A DNA stretch of 64,000 nucleotides from Colwellia sp. GTDB taxonomy: Bacteria > Pseudomonadota > Gammaproteobacteria > Enterobacterales > Alteromonadaceae. This document shows, one piece after another, positions 41,001 to 61,134 of this stretch (position 1 is its first letter; each line of letters starts with the position of its first letter). The translations under genes and the position numbers were made by a program. The notes beneath the pieces were generated by a model. That model had not been told where the DNA came from. It saw only the letters and a list, made by a program, of their open reading frames with translations, and made no database searches. The stretch spans positions 186,001 to 250,000 of the forward strand of contig JABSOW010000002.1 of assembly GCA_013215465.1 (NCBI GenBank). Direction: 5' to 3'.

Positions 41001-44000
41001 CGGGTAATATGCGCGATGGAACAAATGGCAACGCCCTTGCGGTATCAATTGGTGGTAGTGGCGGTGATGGTGGCACATCAGGGACTGTTAATGTCTCTAA
41101 TGACGGCACTATTATTACTTATGGTGATGTAGCTCACGGCATTCTTGCCCAAAGTATTGGTGGCGGTGGCGGTAATGCTGCTTCTACTTATGCGACATCT
41201 CTTCGGGCGAATGAAAATTCTAATGCGGCTTATTCTATTGGTGGCCAAGGTGGTAGTGGCAACACTTCTGAAAATGTCACTGTGTTTAATTCAGGTACAA
41301 TCACAACTAATGGTACTAAATCTTACGGTATTTTAGCACAAAGTATTGGTGGCGGTGGTGGTAATGGCTCATTGTCAATCGCTGCGGCTTCAGGAACATA
41401 CAATAGCGCCTCTGGCAGCATTAAGAACTTTGCCATTGGAGGCTTTGGCGGTGCAGGTGGTGATAGTGGTGATGTGTTGGTTGATCATACGGGTGTTATT
41501 ACTGTTAATGGCGACCATTCATATGGTATTTATGCGCAGTCAGTTAGTGGTGGCGGTGGTTCTATGGGCTACTCTTTAAGTGCACCAGTAACATCGGTTT
41601 TAACTCACATATTGAAATTAACAAATGGTGGTGATGGCTCTGATGGCGAAGCAGGCACAATAACAGTTAACCTTGATGGTGATATTAATGTCAACGGTAA
41701 CAATAGCCACGCTGTATTTATACAGTCAGTTAACGGCGGCGGTGGCGATGTTGATATCTTTATGGATCTTAGCTTAGAAGCGCAATCAGCAGGTGAAGGA
41801 ACCGTTGATATTGAAGATAATTTATCTACCGTAGAGGAAATTATGGCGGCAATAGACAACTCTTTTGTTGGTATCGCTTTAGATTTTGGTTCAAATTTGG
41901 TTGATGAAGCAAACGGTGCCGTTGTTAACTTAATCCAAGAAGGTGAAGTGTGGCTTCTTGGCGAAGACTCTAGCGGAATAAGTGTTCAAACCGTAGGTGG
42001 TGGTGGTGGTTCTAATTATATAGATTTAACGGTATATGAACAACAAGAGGCCTCAATTGAGGTAAATATTGGTTCAACCGACTCAACAAATAGCTCAGGT
42101 GGTGATGTTGCTTATGAACGCAGTGGCAATGTTGTCATTCAAGGTGATGGCAGTGGCGGCGCTAATATTCAATCAATTGGTGGCGGTGGTGGTAGTTTGA
42201 CCATGGATATCAATGAATTAGGCATGCCTGTTGCTGTAAACTCAGAAAGTTCAGAAAGCTCAGTCGCATTGCGTTCTAGTGCCGCAGCCTCCGCGGAATC
42301 CGTAGGATTAATAACAGCACATACAGCGAACATTTCATTAGGTGCTACAGGTGGTTTAGCAAATAATGGTGGCACGATGAAGGTCAATTTTGTTGATGAT
42401 GTTATTACCACTGGTAATAGAGCTCCGGCAATTATGATTCAAAGTATTGGTGCTGGTGGTGGTGATCTCCGCTTATCTGGCCTTGATCAACTTGCCTTAA
42501 ATATTGGCGGAACTAAAGGAGCCAGCGGTAATGGTGGCGCGATTGGTTTTACCAATAGTGGGAATATTAGTACAGCAGGTTATTTATCACATGGCATTAT
42601 CTTGCAATCCGTAGGAGGAGGCGGCGGTTTTGTGCTAACAGATATTGATGAAAATGATATGTCTATCGTTTTGCAAGATGACAATGAAGGTAATGGTGGT
42701 GATATTAATTTAACCCAAACTGGAAATATTTATGTAGAAGGTGCTGGTTCAATGGGAATTGTTGCCCAATCCCTTGGCGGCGGTGGTGGCATAGTTGATG
42801 ACTATTTTGCCAGTTCTGCTGGTGGTGAAGGTACCTCAGGTAATATTAATATTAAGTCAACGGGTGATATTACCTCAATGGGAGATTATGGTAAGGCTAT
42901 ATTTGCACAATCAGATGGCACCGATGGTTCAGGTAATGTCACATTAGATCTTAATGGTAATATTGCAACTTATGGTCTTGATGGCAGAGGTGTATACGCT
43001 CGTTCAAGTAGTAGTAAAAAAGCTGCTGGGGATATTTTATTTCAATTAACGGGGAGTGCAATTGCCGGAGGTACTAGCAGTATTGGTATCGACCTATTGA
43101 CAATGTCAGCCTTAAAATCAAGTGATATTTCGGTGGTGTTAGATGCTGATATTGGCGCATTGGGCGATAATAGTCAGGGTATTTTCTTTCGTAGTATTAG
43201 CGACACTATATCAGGTGATATAGCGCTAAACTCTTCTGGCGCAGTGGTTGCTGCTGGAGAAGGAAGCACGGCTGTTAATATGTTAAGTCAAGGGAATGAT
43301 GCATCTTCGGTAGTACAAATAAACTTAATAGGTGATATCGAAGCCAGTGGTGTTAATAGTGCCGGTATTATAGCAAAAAGTATTAGTTTATCAGGTAGTT
43401 CTGAAAAGGTTATTTTTGAGCTGATCGGTAATGTACTTGCTACCAATGACAGTAGTACCGCCGTTACTTTGTTGAGTCAAGGTGACTCATCTTCCGGCCT
43501 TGTATCACTCCATGTTGATGGTGCAGTAGAAGCTTTTGGTAATAATGCGATAGGTATTGATGCACAAAGCTTAAGTAATAGTGACGCGGGTGATGTTTTT
43601 TCAAAGCTTGATGGCAATTTACTGGTTTCAGGAGCAGGTAGTCATGGGCTTTTGGCTTCAAGTGTTAGTGCTGGAAGTGCAGGGGATATTACTTTTGATC
43701 TTAAGGGGATTGCCTTGGCGGCTGGTGAAGGCGCTACAGCAATAGAGTTAATATCAAACGGTGGTATAGAATCAGGCGCAGTGACAATGTCTCTTGCTGA
43801 TAATTTAGTGGTAAATGGGAATAATAGCAAAGGGGTACTTGCTGCTAGTATAAGTAATAATATTGCGGATGCTGTTAGTTTCAATATGGCGGGCTCATTG
43901 AAAGTTAATGGTGATAATGCAACGGGTATTAATTTAATGAGTAATGGTGCTATGCAAAGTGGTGAGATTGTAGCATCACTTGATGGTAATACTATTGCAA

Positions 44001-46258
44001 TAGGTAAAAATGTTGTGGCAATTCAAGCCCATAGTCAAAGTGATGTACTATCTGGTGATGTTGTAGTTAATATATCTGGAGATGTATTTATTCTTAATAT
44101 TGATGATGCATTAGAAAGTGCTAGTTCATTAAATTCAATAGAAAAATATTCAGCAGGCATTGATCTGCAAAGTATAAGTGCGGATATTTCTGGTGATATT
44201 TCCCTTACCGTAAACGGTAATATTGACATGCGTAGCAATGGTCGGGCTGCTATTTTATTGTCATCAACGGGGGGCACTCAGTCGGGAAGCGTCACATTAA
44301 CTGTTACCGGTGATGTTATGGCAGTAGGAGACTCAATAAATGCTATTATTCTGGAAAGTATAAGTGATGATGTTGCGGGTAATATTACTTTTATTAACGC
44401 TGAAAATAACCGTATATATGCGGGTGATGGTGGAGTAGGGATTTCTATCATTGGCGGCGATCAAAATAATATTACGATAAACGGTATAATTCATACATCA
44501 GATAAATTGGGTGGTATGGCAATTCTTGGCTCTTCAGGCAATGATAATGTAATTAATAATAATTATTTTTATGGTCAGTTTGATTTAGGTGCTGGTGTAA
44601 ATAGTTTTATTAACAGTGAAAATGCAGTGTTTATCACTGGGGCAGAGTTAATACTTGAAGAGTCTGTTAGCGTAACAGAAGACTCAGAGGAATTATTATT
44701 AAGTGATGTTAGTCTAGCTAAGCCAGCTACTTTATCAGCACGTATTATTAGAAAATTAACAGAGGAAACCTTTGCAGAATTAGACTCTGCTACGAGTATT
44801 AGCGTAATGGAAAATTCTGGAGACTTGGTATTAAGTGATATTGATCTTGCTCAGTCGACTACCTTAACAGGAAGTTTTATCCAAAAATCAACAGGGAAAA
44901 CCTTCGCTGAATTAGACTTTTCTACGGATCTGATGGATCAATTTCTGGCTAGTGGTACAGCTGATCTTGATGGTGAAGTTTATATGTCGCTTCTTAACCC
45001 GCAGTTAATACCTGTTGGTACTTTTAGTAAGGTATTATTTGGTGGTGAAATGGGCGTGGTCGATAATGGACTAGTGTTATTTACCGCACCTTCGGTAGTG
45101 ATTAATTATGATCTTGATTATTCATCCGGTACGACGGCAAAGTTGAATTATAATGTTGACTTTGCTCCTCAATGGTTAAGTAAAAATCTTATCGGTGTTG
45201 GCGAACATTTTAATGAAATACAAAGGGCAGGTAGTTCGCCAGAGCTTTCAAATGTTATTATTAAGCTCATCTATGACGCTAATGAGGAAATTTATCGTAA
45301 TTCATTATCTCAAATATCCCCAGAACTTTATGGTATAGAGCAATCTGGACTTATACATAGCGCACAAAAATTTTCTTCACAAATGATGAGTTGTAGTGCC
45401 TCTGGGCAATATCATAAGCTAAATGGTGATACTTGTTTTTGGAGTTCTTATGGGAAAGAAAGTAGAAAACATGATGCTCATGGAGACTATAAAACCTTTA
45501 ATCAAGAACTTAGTGGTTGGTCAATAGGCGTTGAAAAGCCTTATAACAATTTTTGGTCTTTTGGTTTTGCTGGCTCGCAAATTACCGCTGACATTAATAG
45601 TGGTGATATTTGGAGTAGTGTCAGTGAAACCACTCAATATGGATTATCAGCTAACTATCGAGACGAAGATATTAAATTTTCTTCTAGTTTATCTTATGGA
45701 AAAAATGATTCCAAATCGCAGCGGAAAGGTTTTTTATTAGAATCATTTCAAACGCATTCGAACAGAAATATGACAGTATTAAGTGGCCTTTTAGGAATAT
45801 CGCACGACTTTAGCTTCGGCGTGATTCAACTCCGCCCTAAATTTGAATTTGGCTATAACCATTTACAAACTTCAGCGGCAAATGAAACAGGTGCTGAATT
45901 TCTAAATCTTAATGTAGACAGTAATTCGGAAACGTTTGTTTGGATTCAACCTGGAATTGAAGTAGGTTTTGAATATGAGTTTGAATCAAAGAACCGTTTT
46001 GGCATATTCTTTAATTTAGCAAGCCAACGTTATTTAGGTGAAAGCAATACTTATGTATTCTCAGGACTTGAAGGAGCCCCTATTGATGCTGATCCCATGA
46101 AAGTGGGTATTGATTTAGGAAAGTACTCACGAGTTGGTCAAATATCACTTAGCTTATTAACTAAGAGACACTGGCATCTACTTGCTACTTATAATTTATT
46201 AACGAGCGAACATTATCGTGCAGAAAGTGGAGAAGTGAAAATCTCAGTACCATTTTAA
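29033..46258 (+). CDS. Giant autotransporter (type Va) with Gly-rich repeat passenger
   Basis: One uninterrupted 17.2-kb ORF of 5741 residues. An extended signal peptide (hydrophobic LIAFCLLTILFFCDFFIL, cleavage near ALASP) is followed by a short unique domain to about residue 180. The passenger then has about 65 units with the core (F/L/V)AQS(I/V/L)GGGGG(N/S/A)GG. After about residue 4620 it becomes Gly-poorer SGDI-type repeats. A linker with a 45-residue duplication precedes a C-terminal beta-barrel from about 5466 (CFWSSYGKESRKHD...) that ends in Phe (KISVPF), as expected for BamA recognition. Two cysteines flank the barrel start (MSCSAS, DTCFW). It is probably a very long beta-solenoid adhesin or biofilm matrix protein. 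An alternative upstream or internal start (M14) is possible; neither has a clear ribosome-binding site. Confidence 0.93.
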   Translation: MDYISVNHYRSQLMNPHIQQYLSFGFYKKLIAFCLLTILFFCDFFILSTALASPVCVNANPTETSVAGDIVLDPVSDTCVTVMGIIKYEDVNWGASEGVTASDVVYLVTESGDAILVQNDIGDKVFIIGDDPIVEYEINAVTDVDTNGYPESVELMPNGADPADSGTVFTNLISSAPAATPEGGGGGGAGDPAFNPATTTSGIINEVHTGSGGSGGKDGYGLQICWPWPISSCTLFGYSGTKGGDGDDGSNVNRTVLTGHGDISSTASNTKGIKVASVGGKGGNGGDAYGNFKAKSGGEGGEGGNVVLINHTDVSTSNSKSAAILVYSQSGKGGSGGTGYIFGSGGEGGASKDGGNVSVDNDGSLSTNGSNSHGVHVLTSGGSAGSGGASWGIVGSGGSGANAGNGGTTSVTNDGDIYTKGNDSHGVLAQSIGGTGGDGGSAGGIVSFGGSASSGGVGGSVNVTLESDSNIRTEGNGSSGVSAQSIGGGGGNSGSSGGIVSFGASGGSGNNAGTVTVNTHVGSQISTKGNYANGISAQSIGGGGGSAGATGGLVTFGGTGTGGGNGNTASVTNAGAITTEGTYSRGILAQSIGGGGGNGGGAGGLVTFGSSGGSGGNGGQVIVNNDGSSSAITTTGVSSDAIFAQSIGGGGGTAGATGGAVAFGGSSSSGGNASNVFVTNDGNLNTNGDYSRGIFAQSVGGGGGAGAAAGGIVTFGGSAGSGGNSGTVSVNSTSTGVITTQGQFADGIFAQSVGGGGGASGTAGGAVTFGGSGASAGNAKAVTVTNAANISTNDDFSRGIFAQSIGGSGGAAGSSGGAVTFGGDSGSGGTSGVVTVTNNTTGAVITTGNISTIGVFSDAIFAQSIGGGGGSAGASGGVVTLGGGSGVGGVAGDVIVNNHANLLTDGEYSRGIFAQSIGGGGGAGGIAAGIVNLGGDGASGGDAGSVDIGNSGYISTKSIFSDAIFAQSIGGGGGSAGDAGGVVNLGGSGSSGGTAQTVTVINSGTLITSGDNSRGIFAQSIGGGGGTGGDAFGVINIGGTGDAAGDAADVDVTNNGSIQTNGNRADGVFAQSIGGGGGNGGSAIGVVSIGGSASSGGLSGEVIAINEGQITTNGEDSRGIFAQSVGGGGGNGGGGTSGSLFVGFSLGGEGGNGGDGDKVTINLDKNQSSYSDTSSSIYTLGDRATGVLAQSVGGGGGNGGDSITGSLGAFGSVSVAIGGNAGSGGEGGIVSMSGAGSIATEGDLAAGVVLQSVGGGGGNGGMSIAGSAAAGPAGGAVSVSLGGEGGDGGIGGTVTTSNADMNITTSGDQSSGYIAQSVGGGGGNGGLSVAATASAGAVASGSISVGLGGNAGEGGEGGTVNVEFGGLVTTTGDQSDAVLIQSVGGGGGNGGVTVGASAAGAGVGSGTISVGLGGTGAKGGNAGTVDADITADISTDGDGSDGLVIQAIGGGGGNGGMSITAGVAGAGVGAASVAVGLGGSGDEGGEANVVTANYDGILLTQGDNSTGILAQAVGGGGGNGGGTVTATLTGAGTGAGNINVGLGGSAGGGGIGGVSGIDVAVSLITAGQVQTLGNNSAAIVAQSVGGGGGNGGFIIVAGGAGAGVGAAAVAVGIGGSGGDGGAGKDVEATIDSDIQTQGDNSSAVIVQSIGGGGGNGGILVSATMAAAGTGSASASVGIGGSGGGGGNAGKIDSAVTSNILTLGDNSAGVLAQSVGGGGGNSGLNVTASVTAAGTGAAGAAVGIGGSGGDGGDSDSVVSDVVGYIETQGNNANGIVTQSIGGGGGNGGIVIAGSLTAAGTGSAGVAVGLGGSGGGGGDSNNVTSTVVANVNTSGNGSNGVIAQSLGGGGGTGSLTVTGVVALSGTGAGSVGVGLGGSGGGGGNASVVINDVTGDVTTLGNDATGIVAQSLGGGGGIGGIAITGSLTAAGTGAAGVAVGIGGSGGSGGMSSTVNNTVTGDVWTQGIGSDGVLAQSIGGGGGNGGISIVGTVSLVGTGAGAVAVGIGGSGGSGGVSDAVTNNVMGNVTTLAADSSAIVAQSIGGGGGNGGITITGTLTASGKGAGGVAVGIGGSGGEGGQSSTVANTVVGNVRTEGDTSSGVLAQSVAGGGGNGSISITAAVSLSGTGAGAVAVGLGGTGGDGGNSDAVTNSVTGDVITLGNESSGVIAQSLGGGGGNGGISIAGTLAASGKGAGGVAVGIGGSGGTGGQSSTVDNTIDGNVITVGNESNGVLAQSIGGGGGNGGIAIAGAVALASDGAGAISVGIGGSGGTGSASAAVTNNITGDITTSGSQSSAVIAQSLGGGGGNGGLTIAGALTATKKFSGSVSVGVGGSAGDGGTSSTVNNTITGNVITAGDESMGVVAQSIGGGGGNGGMSVTAGVSLIIDSSGTSGAIGVGVGGSGGSGTASDAVINNVTGDVSTTGIKASAIVAQSIGGGGGNGGMSITGTLAISKNNSGSVAVGVGGSGGDGGTSSAVDNIVIGDIATLGDESMGVLVQSIGGGGGNGGLSIAGALSFSLGDSGTSGAIGIGVGGTGGTGGASGAVTNSVAGNVNTSGDNASAIIAQSIGGGGGNGGLTITAGIVVTKNNGGALGVGIGGSGGDGGVSSMVNNTVVGNVNTVGENSMGILAQSVGGGGGNGGLSITGAVSLAADSAAALGIGIGGTGGSGGNSAVVINNVSGNVRTKGLSASGIVAQSIGGGGGTGGISIAGSLSVTKKNSGALAVGIGGFGGDGGQASTVLNTVVANIITSGDQAIGILAQSVGGGGGAGGINISGAVSASVSASSEESIAAAIGLGGFGGGGGDAGYVSNNFTGIALTYGVGASAVMAQSVGGGGGAGGTNISGSASFSMDGSSAAIGVGVGGFGGDGGDAGNVTSIVATKLIQTIGANAIGVIAQSTGGGGGTGGINIAGALNFTDDSTGAAIGLGVGGFGGGGGNAGNTDLTVIGDVKTSGDEAHAIVSQSVGGGGGVGGLNVSGAVSFSKNDANTTSVAIGLGGFGGSGGDAGNASLVYEGTVNAPWSFVKDDYLAPSKHKSITGSHGLVSQSIGGSGGMGGVNISGGISYSGSNAGTSNGSGNSLVLGIGGFGGGGGNAGSASVVVTGGNSITAHGDDGSAIFAQSVGGGGGAGAINVSAGITSDTPLIFGVGGFGGDGGTAGSVIVNAVTDLYADGKNATGLTAQSLGGGGGNGALNITGGGSYNSAGSNSSVVFGVGGFGGAGNIAGDVNVNHTGSINVQGQYGHGILAQSISGGGGNGGLNVSGSANWTSDTASSAQNFSVVGGIGGFAGSGADAGNVVVESSGVIITNGDGARGIFAQSIGGGGGTGGMNITTNISKEANPLTLGIGGFGGGGGHAGNVTVTRGNSLNFAGLILTQATVTGTLELKNDDDSTEIIDLLGSASHGIEASSIGGGGGDAGMNFNLTYSSAGSTSNDGSGQGSGSGSTSSTDRSVPSSTGVDDSVIPQYNAVLAELEGRQSSNSATDTQPTKDAYSANLMIGGAGGEAGDGGVVSVENYGNIETHNNSSYGILAQSIGGGGGNATFNIAVGYAPNTRSLNVAIGGAVGDGGIGKNVTVVQDGNITTFGKDSVGILAQSLGGGGGNAGMDFAYTNTSEGKLSFTLGRQGGTGGEGGNVGIISAGNISTSGDNAYGIQAQSVGNGGGNSSAYSVSGALPDSNGESGQSLKISVGIEGGVGGFAGTVDVDAAGVIATTGYKAFGILAQSIGGGGGNGGTASVKASSSNVSLVLGGVGGEGGYGNAVSVISDAVVTTEGDNATGIFAQSIGGGGGTGGSVKTAGKVSGGNSLVLAIGGNGGVGATSDVVSVDHDGIVVTKGSNAHGILAQSIGGGGGNADYIRSFIYNQNVTNTSSNVVSIAVGGTGGTGAISGNVIVNNSGGIETFLEKSIGIFAQSIGGGGGNANKIYSSIISSGEGTSANIALGGSGGTGAMSGNVVVTNHDDSSIFSGVIVTHGHGSHGIAAMSIGGGGGESASNIAGNMRDGTNGNALAVSIGGSGGDGGTSGTVNVSNDGTIITYGDVAHGILAQSIGGGGGNAASTYATSLRANENSNAAYSIGGQGGSGNTSENVTVFNSGTITTNGTKSYGILAQSIGGGGGNGSLSIAAASGTYNSASGSIKNFAIGGFGGAGGDSGDVLVDHTGVITVNGDHSYGIYAQSVSGGGGSMGYSLSAPVTSVLTHILKLTNGGDGSDGEAGTITVNLDGDINVNGNNSHAVFIQSVNGGGGDVDIFMDLSLEAQSAGEGTVDIEDNLSTVEEIMAAIDNSFVGIALDFGSNLVDEANGAVVNLIQEGEVWLLGEDSSGISVQTVGGGGGSNYIDLTVYEQQEASIEVNIGSTDSTNSSGGDVAYERSGNVVIQGDGSGGANIQSIGGGGGSLTMDINELGMPVAVNSESSESSVALRSSAAASAESVGLITAHTANISLGATGGLANNGGTMKVNFVDDVITTGNRAPAIMIQSIGAGGGDLRLSGLDQLALNIGGTKGASGNGGAIGFTNSGNISTAGYLSHGIILQSVGGGGGFVLTDIDENDMSIVLQDDNEGNGGDINLTQTGNIYVEGAGSMGIVAQSLGGGGGIVDDYFASSAGGEGTSGNINIKSTGDITSMGDYGKAIFAQSDGTDGSGNVTLDLNGNIATYGLDGRGVYARSSSSKKAAGDILFQLTGSAIAGGTSSIGIDLLTMSALKSSDISVVLDADIGALGDNSQGIFFRSISDTISGDIALNSSGAVVAAGEGSTAVNMLSQGNDASSVVQINLIGDIEASGVNSAGIIAKSISLSGSSEKVIFELIGNVLATNDSSTAVTLLSQGDSSSGLVSLHVDGAVEAFGNNAIGIDAQSLSNSDAGDVFSKLDGNLLVSGAGSHGLLASSVSAGSAGDITFDLKGIALAAGEGATAIELISNGGIESGAVTMSLADNLVVNGNNSKGVLAASISNNIADAVSFNMAGSLKVNGDNATGINLMSNGAMQSGEIVASLDGNTIAIGKNVVAIQAHSQSDVLSGDVVVNISGDVFILNIDDALESASSLNSIEKYSAGIDLQSISADISGDISLTVNGNIDMRSNGRAAILLSSTGGTQSGSVTLTVTGDVMAVGDSINAIILESISDDVAGNITFINAENNRIYAGDGGVGISIIGGDQNNITINGIIHTSDKLGGMAILGSSGNDNVINNNYFYGQFDLGAGVNSFINSENAVFITGAELILEESVSVTEDSEELLLSDVSLAKPATLSARIIRKLTEETFAELDSATSISVMENSGDLVLSDIDLAQSTTLTGSFIQKSTGKTFAELDFSTDLMDQFLASGTADLDGEVYMSLLNPQLIPVGTFSKVLFGGEMGVVDNGLVLFTAPSVVINYDLDYSSGTTAKLNYNVDFAPQWLSKNLIGVGEHFNEIQRAGSSPELSNVIIKLIYDANEEIYRNSLSQISPELYGIEQSGLIHSAQKFSSQMMSCSASGQYHKLNGDTCFWSSYGKESRKHDAHGDYKTFNQELSGWSIGVEKPYNNFWSFGFAGSQITADINSGDIWSSVSETTQYGLSANYRDEDIKFSSSLSYGKNDSKSQRKGFLLESFQTHSNRNMTVLSGLLGISHDFSFGVIQLRPKFEFGYNHLQTSAANETGAEFLNLNVDSNSETFVWIQPGIEVGFEYEFESKNRFGIFFNLASQRYLGESNTYVFSGLEGAPIDADPMKVGIDLGKYSRVGQISLSLLTKRHWHLLATYNLLTSEHYRAESGEVKISVPF
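29838..42830 (+). repeat. In-gene array of about 65 Gly-rich passenger repeats
   Basis: My hand count of QS-GGGGG cores is about 65 to 67. Units range from about 55 to 100 residues. Between 33776 and 36116 the CAA/CAG codon of thirteen successive cores is spaced exactly 195 bp (65 residues). Neighbouring units alternate between two versions, giving a 390-bp dimer. Copies differ mostly at third codon positions and in short variable loops. The repeat is coding, not CRISPR or satellite DNA. Confidence 0.9.
42880..44500 (+). repeat. Second repeat class in the autotransporter (SGDI / SxGI type)
   Basis: The Gly-run disappears and units of about 45 to 50 residues take over, with alternating SGD(I/V)xxxLxGxVxAxGxxSxGIxxxS patterns (for example AGDILFQLTGSAIAGG and SGDIALNSSGAVVAAG). 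This looks like the stem of the passenger next to the barrel, with shorter beta-solenoid coils. Confidence 0.7.
44660..44935 (+). repeat. Tandem 45-residue duplication before the barrel
   Basis: SVTEDSEELLLSDVSLA... ending TFAELDSATSI is followed directly by SVMENSGDLVLSDIDLA... ending TFAELDFSTDL. The two copies are clearly related and contiguous, and both contain KTFAELD or ETFAELD. Confidence 0.8.
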
Positions 46259-46657: not shown

Positions 46658-47680
46658 GTGAAAGAAAAAGCTACCTCTTTTGATATCGCCTATCAGGCGG
46701 GTGTTTCTCAGTCAACAGTATCTAGAGCACTACGAAATAGTCCTTTAGTTAATGAAGCAACGCGACAAAAAATTCAGGCTATTGCCAAAGAATTAAATTA
46801 CAAAGTAGACAAAAACGCGAGTAACTTACGCTCACAGCATTGTGACACCATTGCCTTGTTACTCTTTGAAGACCCTACTAATGATGACTCAGCCATCAAT
46901 CCTTTTTTTCTTTCTATGTTAGGTAGCATAACTCGAGCTTGCGCGGATAAAGGTTATGATCTATTAGTTTCTTTCCAACAAGCAAGTAATGATTGGCATG
47001 CTGATTTTGAAGACAGTAATAAAGCTGATGGGTTAATTTTACTCGGTTATGGTGATTATGTTGATTTTGAAGAAAAACTAATTAAATTGAGTGAACAAGG
47101 AACACATTTTGTGCGCTGGGGGGCAGAAGTCAAAAATTTACCCATTGTTTCTATAGGCTGTGATAATTATCTTGGTGGCAAAGAAATTACTGAGCACGTG
47201 ATTAAGCAAGGTCGAAAACACTTTGCTTTTTTAGGTAGCGCCTCTAGCCATGCACCCGAATTTTTTGATCGTTATAAAGGTCACTGCCAAGCACTTAAAG
47301 ATAATAACTTAGTTGTGAATAGCAATATGCAGTTTAATGCTCTGTATACTGAAGAAGCCGGTTATAAGGCTGCTTGTGAATTGATAGCAAGTGGTGAAAA
47401 ATTTGATGCAATTTGTGCCGCCTGTGATTTAATCGCGGTAGGTGCTATGCGAGCCTTACATGAGTGTCAGCTTTCAATCCCAGAGCAAGTCGTGGTCGTG
47501 GGCTTTGATGATATTGCTATTGCTAGTTTTACTTTCCCTCCTTTAACAACCGTTAAGCAAGATACTCAATTAGCCGGTGAGCTATTAGTGAACACCTTAC
47601 TTGAATCGATTAATGGTAAAGAGACTTCAACCACCTTAATATCGCCAGAATTAGTGATCAGGAAATCTTGTGGATGTTAA
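46658..47680 (+). CDS. LacI-family transcriptional regulator, probably of the alpha-glucan genes
   Basis: 340 residues. The N-terminal HTH is typical (SFDIAYQAGVSQSTVSRALRNSPLVNEATRQKI), with the hinge-helix region after it (VDKNASNLRS). It is followed by a periplasmic-binding-like sugar domain (GLILLGYGDY, AICAACDLIAVGAMRAL, VVVGFDDIAIASFTFPPLTTVKQD). The start is GTG at 46658 with AGAGGT upstream. Its gene faces the convergent sugar transporter and adjoins GH31/GH13 enzymes, so the effector is probably maltose, glucose or a related sugar. The likely operator is the ATACGTAT palindrome found four times in this locus (inference). Confidence 0.92.
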   Translation: MKEKATSFDIAYQAGVSQSTVSRALRNSPLVNEATRQKIQAIAKELNYKVDKNASNLRSQHCDTIALLLFEDPTNDDSAINPFFLSMLGSITRACADKGYDLLVSFQQASNDWHADFEDSNKADGLILLGYGDYVDFEEKLIKLSEQGTHFVRWGAEVKNLPIVSIGCDNYLGGKEITEHVIKQGRKHFAFLGSASSHAPEFFDRYKGHCQALKDNNLVVNSNMQFNALYTEEAGYKAACELIASGEKFDAICAACDLIAVGAMRALHECQLSIPEQVVVVGFDDIAIASFTFPPLTTVKQDTQLAGELLVNTLLESINGKETSTTLISPELVIRKSCGC

Positions 47681-47743: not shown

Positions 47744-49255
47744 CTATTGCGCGGTTACTTCCTCTTTATCTGTAACGGATTTCTCTTCTACACCATCTTT
47801 GACAAAATACACTGACAGAGCCGCTAATACCATTGAGATACCAGCCATCATAATAATGTAAACCGCTTGGTTATCAAAAATGCTTGTTAATATCCAACCA
47901 GCAAAAATACCTGAAACAATTTGAGGGGCAGCAATAGTGAAGTTAAATATTCCCATATAAACACCCGTTTGTTTCACTGGTAATGAACCCGCCAAAATCG
48001 CGTAAGGCATCGCCAAAATAGCTGCCCAAGCCATACCAATACCCACCATAGGTAAAAATAACGTAACAGCACCTTGTGGCACTTCAATTTGAGTAATACC
48101 CAAGTTGACTATGGTTAGTTCTGGATTTTGTATCAGCATAATACTTAAGAAGCCAATACCGCCAGCCAGTAGTGATAGTGAATAAGTCAGCTTGCGACCA
48201 ACTTTGTTGGCAATTTTTGCCATAAACAATGAAGCAATAGCAGCAAAAAACATATAAGCTGCGAAGATGATACCCACCCAATCGCCAGCGGTGCCTTTCG
48301 CTTGAGCGATATGCTCAGGAATGGTACCAATGGACTCTAAGTAATGGGGATCAAACCATTTCGCCTCTATCCCCCAAATATGCTGAGTGATCGCCGGCGT
48401 GGTATAAACCCACATAATAAATAATGCAAACCAAGAGAAAAATTGCACTAAAGCCAGTTGTTTCATGGTGGTTGGCATAGTTTTCATTAAGCCAAAAAAC
48501 TCAGTTAATTTTTCACCAAGTGAGCGCTCTATATCACTTTTTTCTAATGGCGCTAACCCGTGGGTGCCAGGTGCATATTCTTTGGTTCTAAATACTGTCC
48601 ACAATACTGAGCCTAGCATTACTGAAGCGCCAATATAAAAGGCCCAAATGACCGATGGTGCCACACTGCCTGCACTAGCGGTATTATCTAAACCAATAAC
48701 ATTAGTTAATATAAATGGCATGATAGAGCCACAAACACCACCAATATTAATTAAGAAGGATTGAATTGAATAACCTACATTACGTTGCTCGCTTGGTACC
48801 ATATCTGACACTAAAGCGCGAAATGGTTGAAAAGCCAAATTAAAAGAGGCGTCCATTAATGCTAGCATCATAGCGCCAAAAAATAAGGGGGTAATAAAGC
48901 CGGCTAAGGTTGCTGAATTTGGCATTAATAACATGCCAATAGCGGCAGTAAACCCGCCTGCTAAAATGTAAGGATTACGTCTTCCTAAACGATTCCAGGT
49001 TCGGTCTGACGCAGAGCCGACGATTGGCTGGATTAGTAAACCCATGATGGGAGCGACTAACCAAAATAACGATAATGAATGTAAATCAGCACCTAAATCT
49101 GAAAGTATGCGGCTGGCATTGGCATTTTGTAAAGCAAAGCCAAATTGAACGCCTAAAAAGCCGAAACTGACATTCCATATTTGCCAAAAACTAAGGCGTG
49201 GTTTTTGATGTATTGTGTTTGTTCTTTTATTGGTATCGGCATCAGTCGTGGTCAT
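47744..49255 (-). CDS. MFS sugar transporter (SLC45/maltose-type)
   Basis: A 503-residue inner-membrane protein with about 12 membrane segments. The N-terminal SFWQIWNVSFGFLGVQFGFALQNANASRIL and the loop QPIVGSASDRTWNRLGRRNPYILAGG are typical of SLC45-like MFS sugar carriers found in bacterial maltose/alpha-glucan loci. It probably imports maltose or short maltodextrins by cation symport. It is on the same strand as the GH31 gene but is separated from it by 311 bases containing a terminator and a putative LacI operator, so it may have its own regulated promoter. Confidence 0.88.
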   Translation of the reverse strand: MTTTDADTNKRTNTIHQKPRLSFWQIWNVSFGFLGVQFGFALQNANASRILSDLGADLHSLSLFWLVAPIMGLLIQPIVGSASDRTWNRLGRRNPYILAGGFTAAIGMLLMPNSATLAGFITPLFFGAMMLALMDASFNLAFQPFRALVSDMVPSEQRNVGYSIQSFLINIGGVCGSIMPFILTNVIGLDNTASAGSVAPSVIWAFYIGASVMLGSVLWTVFRTKEYAPGTHGLAPLEKSDIERSLGEKLTEFFGLMKTMPTTMKQLALVQFFSWFALFIMWVYTTPAITQHIWGIEAKWFDPHYLESIGTIPEHIAQAKGTAGDWVGIIFAAYMFFAAIASLFMAKIANKVGRKLTYSLSLLAGGIGFLSIMLIQNPELTIVNLGITQIEVPQGAVTLFLPMVGIGMAWAAILAMPYAILAGSLPVKQTGVYMGIFNFTIAAPQIVSGIFAGWILTSIFDNQAVYIIMMAGISMVLAALSVYFVKDGVEEKSVTDKEEVTAQ

Positions 49256-49293
49256 GTAGCGGACTCTTATATAAATTATTTCAGCTAGTTTAA

Positions 49294-49320
49294 TAAAAAA
49301 AGCACCCGTTAAGAGTGCTT
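49294..49320 (-). terminator. Intrinsic terminator between GH31 and MFS genes
   Basis: On the minus strand AGCACTC and GGGTGCT (one G-U) form a hairpin followed by TTTTTTTATT. It ends about 40 bases before the MFS start codon and about 250 bases after the GH31 stop. Confidence 0.75.
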
Positions 49321-49441
49321 ATGGCCTAACAAAACAAGGCAAATATCAAACAACAAGGGGATCAAAATGAATAGGCATTAGCTAAGTCGAATCATTTCAA
49401 TAATCTCAATATACTAACTATCGCTAAGAACAGCTATCTCT

Positions 49442-49456
49442 TACATACGTATTCAG
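49442..49456. promoter_or_regulatory. Putative LacI-type operator 1 (upstream of MFS gene)
   Basis: TTACATACGTATTCA has the 10-bp core shared with three other sites in this locus, with a central CG as in LacI-family operators. It lies about 190 bases upstream of the MFS start, and the GH31-MFS terminator lies between them. Confidence 0.65.
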
Positions 49457-49566
49457 TAGTGTAATAAAGCTATTTTTGCTTTCAATATACAAAGCGATAA
49501 GCTCACTTAAGCTCAAAGGATAGTTAGTACCGTCAATGTCGGCAATTTAATTGACTATTTTTTTCT

Positions 49567-52071
49567 TTAATTCTCTATGCTTAACGTTAACGGTTGGTGT
49601 TGCCAAGTGAACCTCACCGTTAGGGTGTTTTTGGTCTTATCCCAATAAACATCAGATGCTGTGGTATTTGAGCCCACTTGCATTATTTTACCGGCAAGAG
49701 AGATGTTTTTTGGCGGATTAAGCCAATGATGAATGACTAATGAAATTTGTCTTTTTACCGGCATTTCGGGGTAACCATTACCCGTTCGATTAAAGGTAAA
49801 TATTATATTGTCTGCGCCTGAATTTTGTTTATTTTGTTTATTTTGTTTGGCAGTAAAGTGTAATATTTCATATTGATTTTGTGATAGTGATTGAAAGCTT
49901 TGACCGTCATCTTCATACATTTTGCCGGTACTGCTATTAACTGACTCGTCAGCATAATAGTGTAAAGTAAGCTTACTACTGTCGTAATCTTTAGTTGATT
50001 GCATATCGTTAACCATCGGGATAAATGAACCGGCGCGAACTAATACGGGTAGCGTTTCTAGGTTAGTTGCTAAAGAAATTATTTGCCCACCTTGATACTT
50101 TTTCTCAGTAAAGAAATCAAACCAAACGCCTTGAGGTAAAGGGATCGACACTGATGTTACCCCTGCATCAACAACGGGTGTTACTAAAAAGGCATCGCCC
50201 CATAAATAACTGCTAGCATTATCCATTACGTTGAGATTAAACTCATCTTCAAGCGCATATGCAAAGAAAAGCGGGCGCATCAAAGGCATGCCCGTAGTAC
50301 TATTTTGATAGGCTAAAGTGTAATTGTATGGGAGTAAGTTATATCTGAGTTTGATAAATTTTCGTAAAATATCTTGGGTGTCTTTATCATGAAAAACGAC
50401 TTCAGGGGCTATGTTATCTTGTGCGTGAGGACGGTAGATAGGTTGGAATACACCGTATTGTAACCAACGGATATATAGCTCTTTATTAAACACTTCGCCA
50501 CCGGCAAAGCCACCTAGATCTGAATGAGTATACCCCATGCCTAACAGCCCCATTTGCAGGCTAAGTTCTACTTGTGGCTTTAAGCCACCCCAAGAGCGAC
50601 TTACATCGCCCGTCCATGGGATCATGCCATAGCGTTGTGAACCAGCAAAGCCTGAGCGCATTAAAATAAATGGACGTTTGTTTGGCGCTAAACTTAGCTG
50701 GTTTTCAAAAACCATTTTAGCCCACTGATGGCCATAAACATTATGTATCGCATCGCCATTTACCACGCTGCCGTCGCTTAAAGTATGCAGGGTGTCACTA
50801 GGGTGTACTTCTGGTTCGCCTAAATCACCCCACCAGCCAGTTACACCTTGTTGGTATAAGGTTTTATAGATGTTATTGAACCAATTTTTTCCTTTATCAC
50901 TAAATATATCAATTAAGCCAGTATTGCCAAAATAAAAGTCAAAGCGCTTGGGGTTGCCATCAGCATTTTTTGCTAAAGCTTGGCTTTGCTCGGCATCAGC
51001 CCATTTTTTTGAAGTGGTTAATACAAAAGGCTCGGTGATTAATATCGTGTTCACTCCTTGCGCTTTAAGGTCACTGATCATTTTTGTCGGAGTGGGGAAT
51101 GCTGCTTTATCCCAAGCTAAATTGCCCATATGACCTTTGATATCTTTGCCAAACCAGTAAAGATCTAAAATTATGGCATCAAGCGGAAAGTCTAAATCGA
51201 TAAACTTATTAACCGTAGCTCGCACTTCTTGCTCAGAGCGATAACCGAACCGAGAGGCGTAGTTACCCAGCGCCCAACGCGGTGGCATCGGCTGCTTGCC
51301 AGTAATATCAACATAATTATTGATGAGTTCAGGGTAAGTATTACCAGCAAAAACCAGATAAGACATCCGGCCTGATACCGCTGAAAATTGCATAATGTTT
51401 GCTTCTGACTTTCCTAAATCCATCCAACCTTTAGCCGAATTATCAAATAATAAAATATATTTATTACTTGAGAATACTGCGGGTAAACTGAAATTCATTT
51501 GATTTGATTGTGTTTCATAACCGTAATGAGCACGGTTATAAAGCGGCAGACGATGGCCACGTCTATCCATGCCTAATACGCGTTCACCACCACCGAGTAA
51601 TTTTTCATTATCACTTAACTTAAAACGAAAGCCTTGTATCTGATGCTGTGTTTTATCTTCTAAGGTAGTGCCAGTAAAAAAACCAGCTTCTTCTGAAACT
51701 AGCAACTTTTCGCCATAATAGTAGCTAATATTAAAAGGGGACTTATTAATAACCGCGTTAAGTTTTCCTGCAGAGAGTAGTAGTTGCAAAGAGGTTTCTC
51801 TGACAGAAAAACCTTGCTTTTGGGCACGCTCTTTAATCGCAAATGAAGGTAAGAATGCGGCATTATTAAGTTTATTCTCATATTGATAAGTTGTTTCAAT
51901 AGCATTATCGCTATAGGCACTTAAGGTTAATTGTCCTAGTGTTGTATGAATGACTAAGCTTTGCTCTTTTAGATGATGGCTTAAGTAGCTATTCTTTTCG
52001 CTTGCTATGGTTTGGATAGCAAATAATAGTACCAACAGCAAAGTACTTTTTATCAGTAGAAGTGAACGCAA
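49567..52071 (-). CDS. GH31 alpha-glucosidase, exported
   Basis: 834 residues with an N-terminal signal peptide (LLIKSTLLLVLLFAIQTIASE), so periplasmic or outer-membrane-associated. An N-terminal GH31 beta-sandwich (EKLLGGGERVLGMDRRG) precedes the catalytic barrel (LDAIILDLYWFGKDIKGHMGNLAWD). The nucleophile is D416 in GWWGDLGEP and the probable acid/base is D489 in WTGDVSRSW. C-terminal sandwich domains follow. It releases glucose or another sugar from the non-reducing ends of alpha-glucosides. The 834-residue length and SLPLPQGVWFDFFTEKKYQGG are normal for the family. It is divergent from the GH13 alpha-glucosidase. Confidence 0.93.
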   Translation of the reverse strand: MRSLLLIKSTLLLVLLFAIQTIASEKNSYLSHHLKEQSLVIHTTLGQLTLSAYSDNAIETTYQYENKLNNAAFLPSFAIKERAQKQGFSVRETSLQLLLSAGKLNAVINKSPFNISYYYGEKLLVSEEAGFFTGTTLEDKTQHQIQGFRFKLSDNEKLLGGGERVLGMDRRGHRLPLYNRAHYGYETQSNQMNFSLPAVFSSNKYILLFDNSAKGWMDLGKSEANIMQFSAVSGRMSYLVFAGNTYPELINNYVDITGKQPMPPRWALGNYASRFGYRSEQEVRATVNKFIDLDFPLDAIILDLYWFGKDIKGHMGNLAWDKAAFPTPTKMISDLKAQGVNTILITEPFVLTTSKKWADAEQSQALAKNADGNPKRFDFYFGNTGLIDIFSDKGKNWFNNIYKTLYQQGVTGWWGDLGEPEVHPSDTLHTLSDGSVVNGDAIHNVYGHQWAKMVFENQLSLAPNKRPFILMRSGFAGSQRYGMIPWTGDVSRSWGGLKPQVELSLQMGLLGMGYTHSDLGGFAGGEVFNKELYIRWLQYGVFQPIYRPHAQDNIAPEVVFHDKDTQDILRKFIKLRYNLLPYNYTLAYQNSTTGMPLMRPLFFAYALEDEFNLNVMDNASSYLWGDAFLVTPVVDAGVTSVSIPLPQGVWFDFFTEKKYQGGQIISLATNLETLPVLVRAGSFIPMVNDMQSTKDYDSSKLTLHYYADESVNSSTGKMYEDDGQSFQSLSQNQYEILHFTAKQNKQNKQNSGADNIIFTFNRTGNGYPEMPVKRQISLVIHHWLNPPKNISLAGKIMQVGSNTTASDVYWDKTKNTLTVRFTWQHQPLTLSIEN

Positions 52072-52142
52072 GATAAAATCCTTAATTGAATTCTTTATTT
52101 TATTACCAGAATAATAACCCTAGTCAAGCTAACGTAGCATCT

Positions 52143-52157
52143 TGAATACGTATGTAA
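52143..52157. promoter_or_regulatory. Putative LacI-type operator 2 (GH31 promoter)
   Basis: TGAATACGTATGTAA, the reverse complement of operator 1 (identical over 15 bases). It lies 72 bases upstream of the GH31 start. Confidence 0.7.
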
Positions 52158-52311
52158 TACACGATTAATTTAATGACAATATTAATAGTACTAAGCCACA
52201 GTCAGCGGCATTATTTGTGCTTACATATAAACCTTAGCATAAGACGGTATGTGGTTTGTTATGAGTAAGAGAAAGCTTTTGGTAAAGCGTTGTATTTTTC
52301 CGCTCTTGTTA

Positions 52312-52326
52312 TTACATACGTATGCA
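52312..52326. promoter_or_regulatory. Putative LacI-type operator 3 (GH13 promoter)
   Basis: TTACATACGTATGCA. Its centre is 31 bp from the centre of operator 4, about three helical turns, so two dimers could bind on the same DNA face. Confidence 0.7.
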
Positions 52327-52343
52327 GAATTAAGGAAAATGAA

Positions 52344-52357
52344 TGCATACGTATGCA
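52344..52357. promoter_or_regulatory. Putative LacI-type operator 4 (GH13 promoter)
   Basis: TGCATACGTATGCA, a perfect 14-bp palindrome, the most symmetrical of the four copies. It lies 117 bases upstream of the chosen GH13 start. Confidence 0.75.
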
Positions 52358-52473
52358 AGGGCTATTCCCCACTAAATGAATTGCGTATTCTAAGTTGTAA
52401 TTATAAAAAATAATTCAGTCAAAAGTAGTGGTATCTACTTCAATGAATGCAAAATACAGTGTGGAGTTTTAGA

Positions 52474-54105
52474 ATGAGTGAACAACTGTGGTGGCGTGGT
52501 GCGGTAATTTATCAAATTTATCCGCGAAGCTTTTATGATGCTAATCAAGATGGTATCGGTGATTTACCCGGTATAATCAGTAAGCTAGATTATATTGCTA
52601 GCTTAGGTGTCGATGCTATTTGGATTTCGCCATTTTTTAAATCTCCGATGAAAGACTTTGGTTATGATATTAGTGATTATCGTAATGTTGATCCCATTTT
52701 TGGTAGTTTAGCTGATTTTGATGAGTTAATTGTTAAAGCGCATGAGCGCAACATTAAGATAATGATAGATCAAGTGTTAAGTCATACTTCAGATCAGCAT
52801 CAATGGTTTATTGATAGTCGAGAAGATCAAGTTAATGATAAGTCTGACTGGTATGTTTGGGCTGATGCGAAAGAAGATGGTACCGCGCCAAATAATTGGT
52901 TATCTATTTTTGGTGGCACAGGTTGGACATGGGAGCCTCGCCGTCAACAATATTACTTACATAATTTTTTATCTAGCCAACCAGATCTTAATTTTCATAA
53001 TCCACAAGTGTGCAACGCAGTACTTGATAATATTGAGTTTTGGTTAAAGCGCGGTGTTGATGGTTTTAGGCTTGATGCGATAAACTTCTGTTTTCATGAT
53101 GCTCAGCTACGTGATAACCCCGCTAAACCAAAAGAGCTAAGGCAAAGTATCGGCTTTGATGAGAAGAACCCTTATGCCTATCAGTATCATTACTTTAATA
53201 ACACTCAACATGAAAACTTAGCCTTTATTGAATCTATTCGAACGTTATTAAATCAATATCCGGGTACCGTGGCTTTAGGTGAAATATCTTCAGAAGACTC
53301 ACTAAAAACGATGGCAGAATATACTCAAGGTGATCAGCGATTACATATGGGTTATAGCTTTGATTTGCTCACTGATGAATTCTCCGCTGCTTATATTAAG
53401 CAAGTAGTACAAACACTTGAAGAACGTGTATCAGATGGCTGGCCATGTTGGGCAATTTCAAATCACGATGTACAGCGTGTAGTCAGTCGTTGGGGTAAGA
53501 GCCAAAATGCCGAGCAAAATACTGATTTAGCTAAGATGCTATTTGCCATGATTTCTTCTTTACGTGGCAGCATTTGTAGTTATCAAGGGGAAGAGCTTGG
53601 CTTAACGGAAGCAGAGATCGCTTTTGAAGATATTCAGGATCCTTACGGTATTACTTTCTGGCCACAATTTAAAGGTCGTGATGGTTGTCGTACTCCTCAT
53701 CCTTGGCAACATGATGAAATCAATGCCGGCTTCACTCAGGCTAAACCTTGGTTGCCGGTAGCGGCAGAACATCAAGAGAGATCAGTTGATCTACAAGAGA
53801 ATTCAGCTGACTCGGTACTAAATAGTTACCGTCATTTTACCAAATGGCGTAAACAGCATAGTGCTTTGCTTTATGGTGATATTGCTTTTGTCGATACCCC
53901 AGAGCCGATACTTTCTTTTATCCGAGAAGACGGCGTTGAAAAGCTGTTAGTTTGTTTTAATTTCAGTAATCAGGCGCAGGAATTATCACTGGATCTATTT
54001 ACTGACGAGCTGTTAGTACTGACTGATCATAACTTAACCACAGCTAGTGTTATTGACGGAAAAATCACCTTGCCAGCGTTTGGTTGTTTTTATGCTTCGT
54101 TGTAA
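52474..54105 (+). CDS. GH13 alpha-glucosidase (oligo-1,6/alpha-1,4 type), cytoplasmic
   Basis: About 543 residues, no signal peptide. It opens WWRGAVIYQIYPRSFYDANQDGIGDLPGI as in GH13 alpha-glucosidases. Catalytic residues are D201 (GFRLDAINF), E270 (ALGEISSED) and D332 (SNHDVQRV). It hydrolyses imported maltose or isomalto-oligosaccharides in the cytoplasm. I chose ATG 52474 because GGAG lies 7 bases ahead; the track's ATG at 52447 would add nine unlike residues. It is followed 19 bases later by the amylase gene, so they form an operon probably controlled by operators 3 and 4. Confidence 0.94.
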   Translation: MSEQLWWRGAVIYQIYPRSFYDANQDGIGDLPGIISKLDYIASLGVDAIWISPFFKSPMKDFGYDISDYRNVDPIFGSLADFDELIVKAHERNIKIMIDQVLSHTSDQHQWFIDSREDQVNDKSDWYVWADAKEDGTAPNNWLSIFGGTGWTWEPRRQQYYLHNFLSSQPDLNFHNPQVCNAVLDNIEFWLKRGVDGFRLDAINFCFHDAQLRDNPAKPKELRQSIGFDEKNPYAYQYHYFNNTQHENLAFIESIRTLLNQYPGTVALGEISSEDSLKTMAEYTQGDQRLHMGYSFDLLTDEFSAAYIKQVVQTLEERVSDGWPCWAISNHDVQRVVSRWGKSQNAEQNTDLAKMLFAMISSLRGSICSYQGEELGLTEAEIAFEDIQDPYGITFWPQFKGRDGCRTPHPWQHDEINAGFTQAKPWLPVAAEHQERSVDLQENSADSVLNSYRHFTKWRKQHSALLYGDIAFVDTPEPILSFIREDGVEKLLVCFNFSNQAQELSLDLFTDELLVLTDHNLTTASVIDGKITLPAFGCFYASL

Positions 54106-54124: not shown

Positions 54125-55924
54125 ATGATGAAAATATTGTTAACTATTTGTAGTTTACTTGCGCTAAACATAAGTGCTAATGCCACCGCGTTATCTGCCG
54201 GTTTAAGTCAAGATGAGACGGCAAAAGCGATTAAACTCGCGCCGTATCAACAACGAGATTTTCAAGATGAAGTTTTCTATTTTGTCTTACCTGACAGATT
54301 TTACAATGGTGATAAAAGCAACGATTTAGGCGCGGCAGCAGGCGATAAAAAGCGTGCTTTATCACGTGGTGGTTTAGATAAAACCCATAAAGGTATGTAT
54401 CACGGTGGTGATTTAGCCGGGCTGACAAAAAAACTGCCTTATCTTGATAATATGGGCATAACGGCTATTTGGTTAACGCCGGTTTTAAGAAACCAAGCCA
54501 TGCAAGCCGGAACATCAGGTTACCATGGTTATTGGATTTTAGATTTTACTGAAATTGATCCTCATTTAGGTAGCAATGCAGATCTAAAGCATCTTATCGA
54601 ACAAGCGCATAAGCGTAATATCAAAGTATTCTTCGATATTATAACCAACCACACGGCGGATGTTATTAAATATGAAGAATGCCACGGTAAAGATGGTTTA
54701 GGTTGGCTTGTTAAGGGTGATGATTGTCCATATAAATCATTAGCGCAACTTGTTGAGGGTGATGTTTATACGCCACTTATTCCCGTGGGTAGCGAGAATT
54801 TAAAGACACCAAGTTGGTTAAATAATATTGACGTTTACCATAATCAAGGTGACTCTCATTGGGCTGGCGAAAGTTCAATTCGTGGTGACTTTGCCGGTCT
54901 TGATGATATTGATACTAATAGTGATAAAGTGGTTGCGGGTATGGTTGATATTTATAAAGCCATTATTGATGAGTTCAAACCAGACGGTTTTCGTATTGAT
55001 ACGGTAAAGCACGTGAATATGGAGTTTTGGCAAGATTTTTCCCCTGCGTTAATGGCACATGCTAAAACGCAAGGGATTGATAACTTCTTTATGTATGGCG
55101 AGGTTTATAGCTTTGAACCTGAACTTTTAAGCCGTTTTACCGTCGAAGGAAAATTGCCATCAGTGCTAGATTTTGCCCTACAGGGTGCGTTGCAAAAAAC
55201 CTTGGTTGAGCAACAAGGTACTGATGTACTAGCGACGCTATTTGCTCAAGATCATTTCTACCAAACTACCCATGATGACATTGAAAATACTAATGCCAAC
55301 CAACTGGTTAACTTTACTGGTAATCATGACATGGGACGTTTTGCTTATTCATTAAAGCAAAGCAAGCATAACTATAGCGAGTTAGAGCAAATTCAACGTA
55401 ATTTGTTAGCGCACGCAATGTTATATTTTAGCCGTGGTGTGCCCGTTATTTATTACGGTGATGAACAAGGCTTTGTTGGTGATGGTGGTGATCAAGCGTC
55501 ACGTCAAGATATGATGCCCTCAAAAGTTGCGAGTTATAATGACGACGACTTGTTAGCAACGGATAAAACTACAGCTGCCGATAATTTTGACAGTAGTCAT
55601 TTGTTTTACCAAAGCTTTACGCAGTACGCTGAGTTATACCAGCAGTACCCCGCGTTACGTTTTGGTAAACAAAGTACGTTATATGCTCAAGATAAACCGG
55701 GTGTTTTTGCTATTTCGCGTACTCATAAGTTGTCGGAAAATGGACAAGATAAAGAGCAAGAATTACTTGTTGTTTTTAATACGGCAAACCATGTTGAATC
55801 ACTCAATGTGCTTGATAGCCATATTCATCGCGATAAGAATGCGAAGCTGCTTTATTTATCCAACGATAGTCAAGACGATGATAAAATAGCCCCGTTAAGC
55901 TTTGCTATTTATCAGTTGAAATAA
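54125..55924 (+). CDS. GH13 alpha-amylase, exported
   Basis: 599 residues with a signal peptide (ILLTICSLLALNISANATA). The GH13 barrel begins DEVFYFVLPDRFYNGDKSND. The catalytic triad is D292 (GFRIDTVKH), E326 (MYGEVYSF) and D402 (TGNHDMGRF), and ITNHT gives the conserved region I. It acts outside the cytoplasm on starch or maltodextrins, feeding the MFS importer and the intracellular glucosidase. It starts at one of two adjacent ATGs, 19 bases after the GH13 glucosidase. No terminator is evident straight after it. Confidence 0.93.
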   Translation: MMKILLTICSLLALNISANATALSAGLSQDETAKAIKLAPYQQRDFQDEVFYFVLPDRFYNGDKSNDLGAAAGDKKRALSRGGLDKTHKGMYHGGDLAGLTKKLPYLDNMGITAIWLTPVLRNQAMQAGTSGYHGYWILDFTEIDPHLGSNADLKHLIEQAHKRNIKVFFDIITNHTADVIKYEECHGKDGLGWLVKGDDCPYKSLAQLVEGDVYTPLIPVGSENLKTPSWLNNIDVYHNQGDSHWAGESSIRGDFAGLDDIDTNSDKVVAGMVDIYKAIIDEFKPDGFRIDTVKHVNMEFWQDFSPALMAHAKTQGIDNFFMYGEVYSFEPELLSRFTVEGKLPSVLDFALQGALQKTLVEQQGTDVLATLFAQDHFYQTTHDDIENTNANQLVNFTGNHDMGRFAYSLKQSKHNYSELEQIQRNLLAHAMLYFSRGVPVIYYGDEQGFVGDGGDQASRQDMMPSKVASYNDDDLLATDKTTAADNFDSSHLFYQSFTQYAELYQQYPALRFGKQSTLYAQDKPGVFAISRTHKLSENGQDKEQELLVVFNTANHVESLNVLDSHIHRDKNAKLLYLSNDSQDDDKIAPLSFAIYQLK

Positions 55925-61124: not shown

Positions 61125-61134
61125 TTTTTTCCAA

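Follow-up and report, generated by a model that had tools for sequence, protein, structure and literature searches.

Predicted MalR operators at alpha-glucan utilization genes of Colwellia and a probable class-II-like activator role for MalR

Introduction

The closest described counterpart of the locus analyzed here lies in Shewanella. The passages on maltose utilization in Rodionov et al. 2010 (PMC2996990) place the ompMal/malZ-glcP, susB and malT-cga operons of Shewanella sp. ANA-3 in the regulon of a novel LacI-type regulator, MalR; a MalR regulon is thus already known in that genus, and the Colwellia regulon adds to it. As far as those passages describe the Shewanella regulon, the two have in common an orthologous LacI-type regulator, the pathway, and the target classes (a GPH/MFS importer, alpha-glucosidases and a TonB-dependent receptor), but the Colwellia regulator gene stands in a cluster with its target genes, a GH31 enzyme and a pullulanase are among the targets, and the operators form pairs spaced by 31 and 40 bp. 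The maltose CUT locus of Xanthomonas campestris (XCC2469 TBDR) likewise combines a maltose-induced TonB receptor with alpha-glucosidases, a sugar transporter and a regulator of the LacI type whose annotation is that of a repressor (PMC1790865), although its gene order differs and it has a CGTase.

Two other LacI-family proteins bear comparison with MalR. Cra/FruR of E. coli activates from sites upstream of the promoter. As a member of the LacI family it can act both as a repressor and as an activator (PMC4052901), but it is global and has another motif, whereas MalR is a local sugar regulator. NagR of the Alteromonadales, Shewanella and Xanthomonas, described in passages of PMC3223726 and PMC2996990 as a LacI-family repressor, shares with MalR the protein family, the genomes and a fixed operator–promoter distance; unlike the MalR operator, however, its operator overlaps the −35 element and the spacer and lies 8–9 bp from the −10.

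Results

The window, by which we mean the whole 64,000-nucleotide stretch analyzed, corresponds to C12:186001-250000 of a 4.68-Mb Colwellia genome in 80 contigs. The genes concerned are the following.

46658–47680, plus strand: LacI-family regulator, ortholog of Shewanella MalR, GTG start, 340 amino acids (Pfam LacI and Peripla_BP_3)
47744–49255, minus strand: MFS sugar transporter, MalT-like (maltose/maltodextrin importer), predicted regulon member (Pfam MFS_1/MFS_2; upstream site kept in relatives)
49567–52071, minus strand: GH31 alpha-glucosidase, predicted regulon member (Pfam Glyco_hydro_31 domains)
52447–54105, plus strand: GH13 alpha-glucosidase, MalZ-like (GH13a), predicted regulon member (Pfam Alpha-amylase)
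54125–55924, plus strand: secreted-type GH13 alpha-amylase (Pfam Alpha-amylase)

Both the N-terminal LacI helix-turn-helix (PF00356) and the periplasmic-binding-like domain (PF13377) of the regulator score above the cut-off. The protein is 93% identical to that of Colwellia sp. C1TZA3, and the DNA-binding helix VSQSTVSRALR and hinge VDKNAS are nearly invariant among orthologs of 63–88% identity. The true start of GH13a is probably ATG 52474, since relatives begin at MSE.WWRG, and the alpha-amylase gene probably forms an operon with GH13a, given the 19-bp gap and the conserved order. The predicted targets for maltodextrin use comprise the MFS importer, the GH31 and the two GH13 enzymes in the window and, beyond it, a TonB receptor and a pullulanase.

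Other features of the neighborhood were also recorded. Directly upstream of malR lies a 5741-aa, repetitive, Gly/Ser-rich reading frame with an autotransporter-like barrel at its end (29033–46258, plus strand). Most relatives have a glucokinase gene between the MFS site and GH31. It is absent here, leaving 311 bp (49255–49567), and a glucokinase gene is found elsewhere in this genome (C2:45052-46005). On the minus strand, 60216–64000 holds two tryptophan-halogenase-like genes and one aldo/keto-reductase-like gene, assigned by sequence appearance, which separate the mal genes from the TonB receptor/pullulanase pair.

The original prediction was that four palindromes with a shared core define a probable LacI regulon. 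All four ATACGTAT octamer cores were found in the window (49445, 52146, 52316 and 52347), each within a 14-bp palindrome TGCATACGTATGCA with 0–2 mismatches; three of the starts given for the sites were exact, and the remaining one, 52312, is corrected to 52313.

49442–49455, minus strand: predicted MalR operator of the MFS gene, TGAATACGTATGTA (motif scan; position kept in relatives)
52143–52156, minus strand: predicted MalR operator of GH31, TACATACGTATTCA (motif scan)
52313–52326, plus strand: predicted distal MalR operator of GH13a, TACATACGTATGCA (31-bp spacing to the proximal site kept, spacer diverged)
52344–52357, plus strand: predicted proximal MalR operator of GH13a, TGCATACGTATGCA, a perfect palindrome (motif scan)

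The sites lie upstream of the MFS, GH31 and GH13 genes, as had been proposed, at 186, 71 and 116 bp from the respective starts (the last counted to the likely ATG 52474), and the pair before GH13a is spaced by exactly 31 bp, about three helical turns, a distance that recurs in relatives. An ATA-CG-TAT core is present in all sites, which makes them even palindromes with a central CG, as the LacI/GalR operator rule asks (PMC4052901); the literature found for the octamer ATACGTAT with LacI consisted of unrelated papers. A scan of the window allowing up to 3 mismatches to TGCATACGTATGCA gave no further site, so the claim that the LacI gene itself (46658) is not preceded by one also stands. The autoregulation seen in 72% of the LacI/GalR family, which is not a required feature, is accordingly not indicated in this genome, and in Cognaticolwellia two sites lie 230–280 bp upstream of the malR ortholog.

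A genome-wide scan for random spread, suggested with the prediction, gave a divided answer. The bare octamer is spread through the genome (46 copies, compared with 65 for its backwards control), and it was rejected as evidence on its own; in the window it occurs 4 times where 1.3 are expected, a count reached by 5 of 100 shuffles. The 14-mer TGCATACGTATGCA with up to 2 mismatches, on the other hand, occurs at only nine places in 4.68 Mb, six of which fall within 18 kb (C12:235442-253452; P ~1e-9). Two of the six, C12:253399 and C12:253439, lie 15 kb on, outside the window; spaced by 40 bp, they fall between the divergent genes for a TonB-dependent receptor and a pullulanase. The regulon as first predicted covered the targets in the window and missed these two genes.

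Conservation upstream of orthologous genes was borne out as well. In relatives within the genus, the gene order and the sites recur at the same places (one before MFS, one before GH31 and the 31-bp pair before GH13), and sites also precede TonB receptors, pullulanases and, farther off, alpha-amylases. Each of the 28 genus genomes with a strong regulator ortholog has 6–18 copies of the degenerate motif, compared with 0–4 copies in eight of the nine genomes scored as lacking one (Mann–Whitney p ~4e-5, or 9e-6 without genome G005, values that are overstated because the sites of related genomes are not independent); a stricter motif gave 0–2 copies in the five ortholog-lacking genomes tested. The ninth genome, G005, retains nine sites of the stricter motif. 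Its contig, however, breaks off within the MFS gene, immediately short of the expected position of the regulator, and the genome was rejected as a case of sites without a regulator. Around 80 named orthologs, none of the 256 eight-base palindromes is as strongly enriched as ATACGTAT (133 occurrences versus 15 expected), and TRMATACGTATKYA occurs 117 times versus 0 for its backwards control, counts that are not fully independent as two contigs are shared among loci.

The motif accompanies the regulator orthologs in Colwellia, Shewanella, Alteromonas and the Xanthomonadales (where it lies near the ortholog genes compared), and it follows the ortholog also where the gene neighborhood differs or the regulator is unlinked. 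Stray MalR-type sites at L077:1307 and L088:4988 precede genes not obviously of starch use, namely a dehydroquinate-synthase-like operon in G005 and, in G014, a region that has a PAS-chemoreceptor gene about 2 kb from the site.

In Shewanella sp. ANA-3, the regulator has a single close homolog (68–69% identity over the full length), whose gene is far from its targets, and the motif occurs between ompMal and malZ-glcP as well as upstream of susB and of malT-cga. Because the motif marks the published MalR operons, we call the window regulator MalR; the ANA-3 homolog, judged by its motif and targets, would be the published MalR, and the motif itself, given the shared operons, is presumably the published MalR motif. 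The prediction of a probable LacI regulon is thus upheld by the co-occurrence of motif and orthologs across the genus, by the first rank among 256 palindromes and by the ANA-3 operons. We regard it as almost certain that the sites are operators of the MalR encoded at 46658–47680. The link between regulator, motif and genes was established by comparison, and direct binding is inferred; the effector is presumably maltose or maltodextrin.

A sigma-70 consensus scan of the window performed no better than shuffles, and promoters were therefore located by alignment to the operator. A TAnnnT box lies 28–29 bp downstream of the gene-nearest operator at 47 of 90 non-redundant sites in other genera and at 39 of 64 in Colwellia-type genomes, against a background of ~2.2 per offset, while the sides without a gene carry it at only 7 of 60 and 6 of 45 sites, respectively. 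Outside Colwellia, 31 of the 90 operators are followed by a TTG at a distance of 5 bp, giving a −35/17–18/−10 promoter whose −35 starts past the operator end. At the −35 position of Colwellia, agreement with the consensus is at background level (2.74 of 6 matches compared with 2.65). In this genome, the boxes are as follows.

49408–49413, minus strand: predicted −10 of the MFS gene, TATATT (28 bp from the operator; no good −35)
52111–52116, minus strand: predicted −10 of GH31, TATTAT (26 bp from the operator; conserved in relatives)
52386–52391, plus strand: predicted −10 of GH13a, TATTCT, inside the conserved TTGCGTATTCT block (28 bp from the operator)

The predicted −10 of the TonB receptor is also 28 bp from its operator, and no −10 box was found at the operator alignment of the pullulanase promoter. 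As a control, operators matching the NagR pattern, which their clustering confirmed, were collected in the same genomes and analyzed in the same way. Their −10 peak was at 8–9 bp, i.e., on the −35/spacer, so the method puts a repressor where one is expected and puts MalR upstream of the hexamers. The NagR offset is fixed because its operator contains the −35 (TTGACA), which is not so for MalR; since NagR shows a fixed offset too, however, fixed spacing alone is not decisive on the mode of action.

Operator pairs within 75 bp of each other are spaced by 20, 29–31, 39–41, 50–51 or 73–74 bp, a further pair is spaced by 80 bp, and the spacers have diverged in sequence while keeping their lengths. 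A Rayleigh test for a 10.5-bp period was strong, counting relatives that are not independent. As a survey of the LacI family reports general pair-spacing peaks at 13, 22 and 32 bp (PMC4052901), we regard helical pair spacing as a trait of the family.

The leader of the MFS gene holds one further element.

49300–49320, minus strand: predicted intrinsic-terminator hairpin of the MFS leader (downstream of the MalR-linked promoter and upstream of the MFS start)

A hairpin with a U-run recurs at this place in most of the Colwellia genomes examined with unrelated stems (AAGCACTC..., GCACATTATTA..., GGCCTATTATT...), and the sister L096 has no terminator hairpin at its MFS leader. The hairpin may act as an attenuator, it may terminate the GH31(-glk) operon that precedes it, or it may mark where a short leader RNA ends; for such an RNA, the malK-leader small RNA Vsr217 of Vibrio (PMC8265627) offers a comparison. 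Rfam gave no match over 49150–52500.

Discussion

Could MalR switch these genes on? The fixed position of the operator beside the promoters suggests that it turns genes on and not only off. A MalR dimer on the gene-proximal operator would cover roughly positions −54 to −41 relative to the predicted start. Placed there, centered at about −47 and directly upstream of a −35 that is weak or absent, it would probably help RNA polymerase in the manner of a class-II activator, and a further dimer would bind the same face of the DNA at a distance of one or several whole helical turns upstream. Its targets would be the MFS importer, the GH31 and GH13 alpha-glucosidases, the alpha-amylase, the TonB-dependent receptor and the pullulanase. 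The geometry found is of the class-II type (a fixed site immediately upstream of a weak −35), with the transcription starts being predicted only. Taken as a whole, the statement that MalR has operators on alpha-glucan genes and acts there as a class-II-like activator is one that we favor with reservation.

The strongest alternative, possible but in our judgment rather unlikely, is that MalR is an ordinary repressor, which without maltodextrin would block polymerase or its alpha subunit at −47 and would be released by maltodextrin, the phased pairs aiding cooperative binding or looping. Most characterized LacI-type regulators act as repressors (PMC4052901), pair peaks at 22 and 32 bp are found across the family in general, and NagR also has a fixed operator–promoter offset; a regulator just upstream of the −35 can, moreover, repress through contacts with RNA polymerase. 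Activation is further weakened by the fact that the −10 boxes are predictions, with that of GH31 at a deviating distance and the pullulanase having none. However, the MalR operator stands outside the −35/−10 hexamers at a fixed 28–29 bp in several families, the Colwellia −35 is at background, and the cause of the NagR offset does not apply to MalR. The broken regulator of genome G009 was set aside as a clue to mode; its targets are split too, maybe through poor assembly, which makes it uninformative. In the literature on MalR and the LacI family we found no activator mode of MalR, and the MalR passages of PMC2996990 give no mode.

It is very improbable that the neighboring regulator is a bystander and that the sites are bound by a different LacI-family protein encoded in the genome. 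Five LacI-domain proteins score above the cut-off in the genome, and some relatives have a 38%-identical LacI paralog inside the cluster, but the presence of the motif tracks the MalR ortholog across genomes, unlinked cases included, and the gene of one of the remaining LacI proteins is itself preceded by the NagR motif. That a common octamer merely recurs here by chance can be dismissed: although the octamer is no more frequent than its control, the 14-mers cluster and are kept at orthologous promoters despite diverged flanks, and this conservation refutes the idea.

As to the paralog, a second LacI-family gene of ~38% identity lies a few kb from malR at L069:15216-16289 and in G008, G025, G007, G003 and G006; the L069 copy is beside an extra TonB receptor and has a different recognition helix (VSTSTASRAL).

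Returning to MalR as an activator, a broader version can be offered tentatively and with more doubt than conviction: MalR of the Alteromonadales and Xanthomonadales would be a LacI-family local sugar sensor and a genuine class-II-type activator of alpha-glucan genes, its helically phased dimers recruiting polymerase to −35-less promoters. From the Colwellia MFS promoter, a short leader RNA comparable to Vibrio Vsr217 would in addition be transcribed, ending at the conserved terminator.

The analysis ties a regulator to a precise predicted operator and an alpha-glucan regulon in Colwellia-type bacteria, with one operator common to Colwellia, Shewanella, Alteromonas and the Xanthomonadales. The spacing rules (28–29 bp to the −10 and whole helical turns between dimers) are directly testable. 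If MalR does act as an activator, LacI sugar regulators taken by default to be repressors in these groups may need the opposite sign, and predictions of when the starch genes are on would change.
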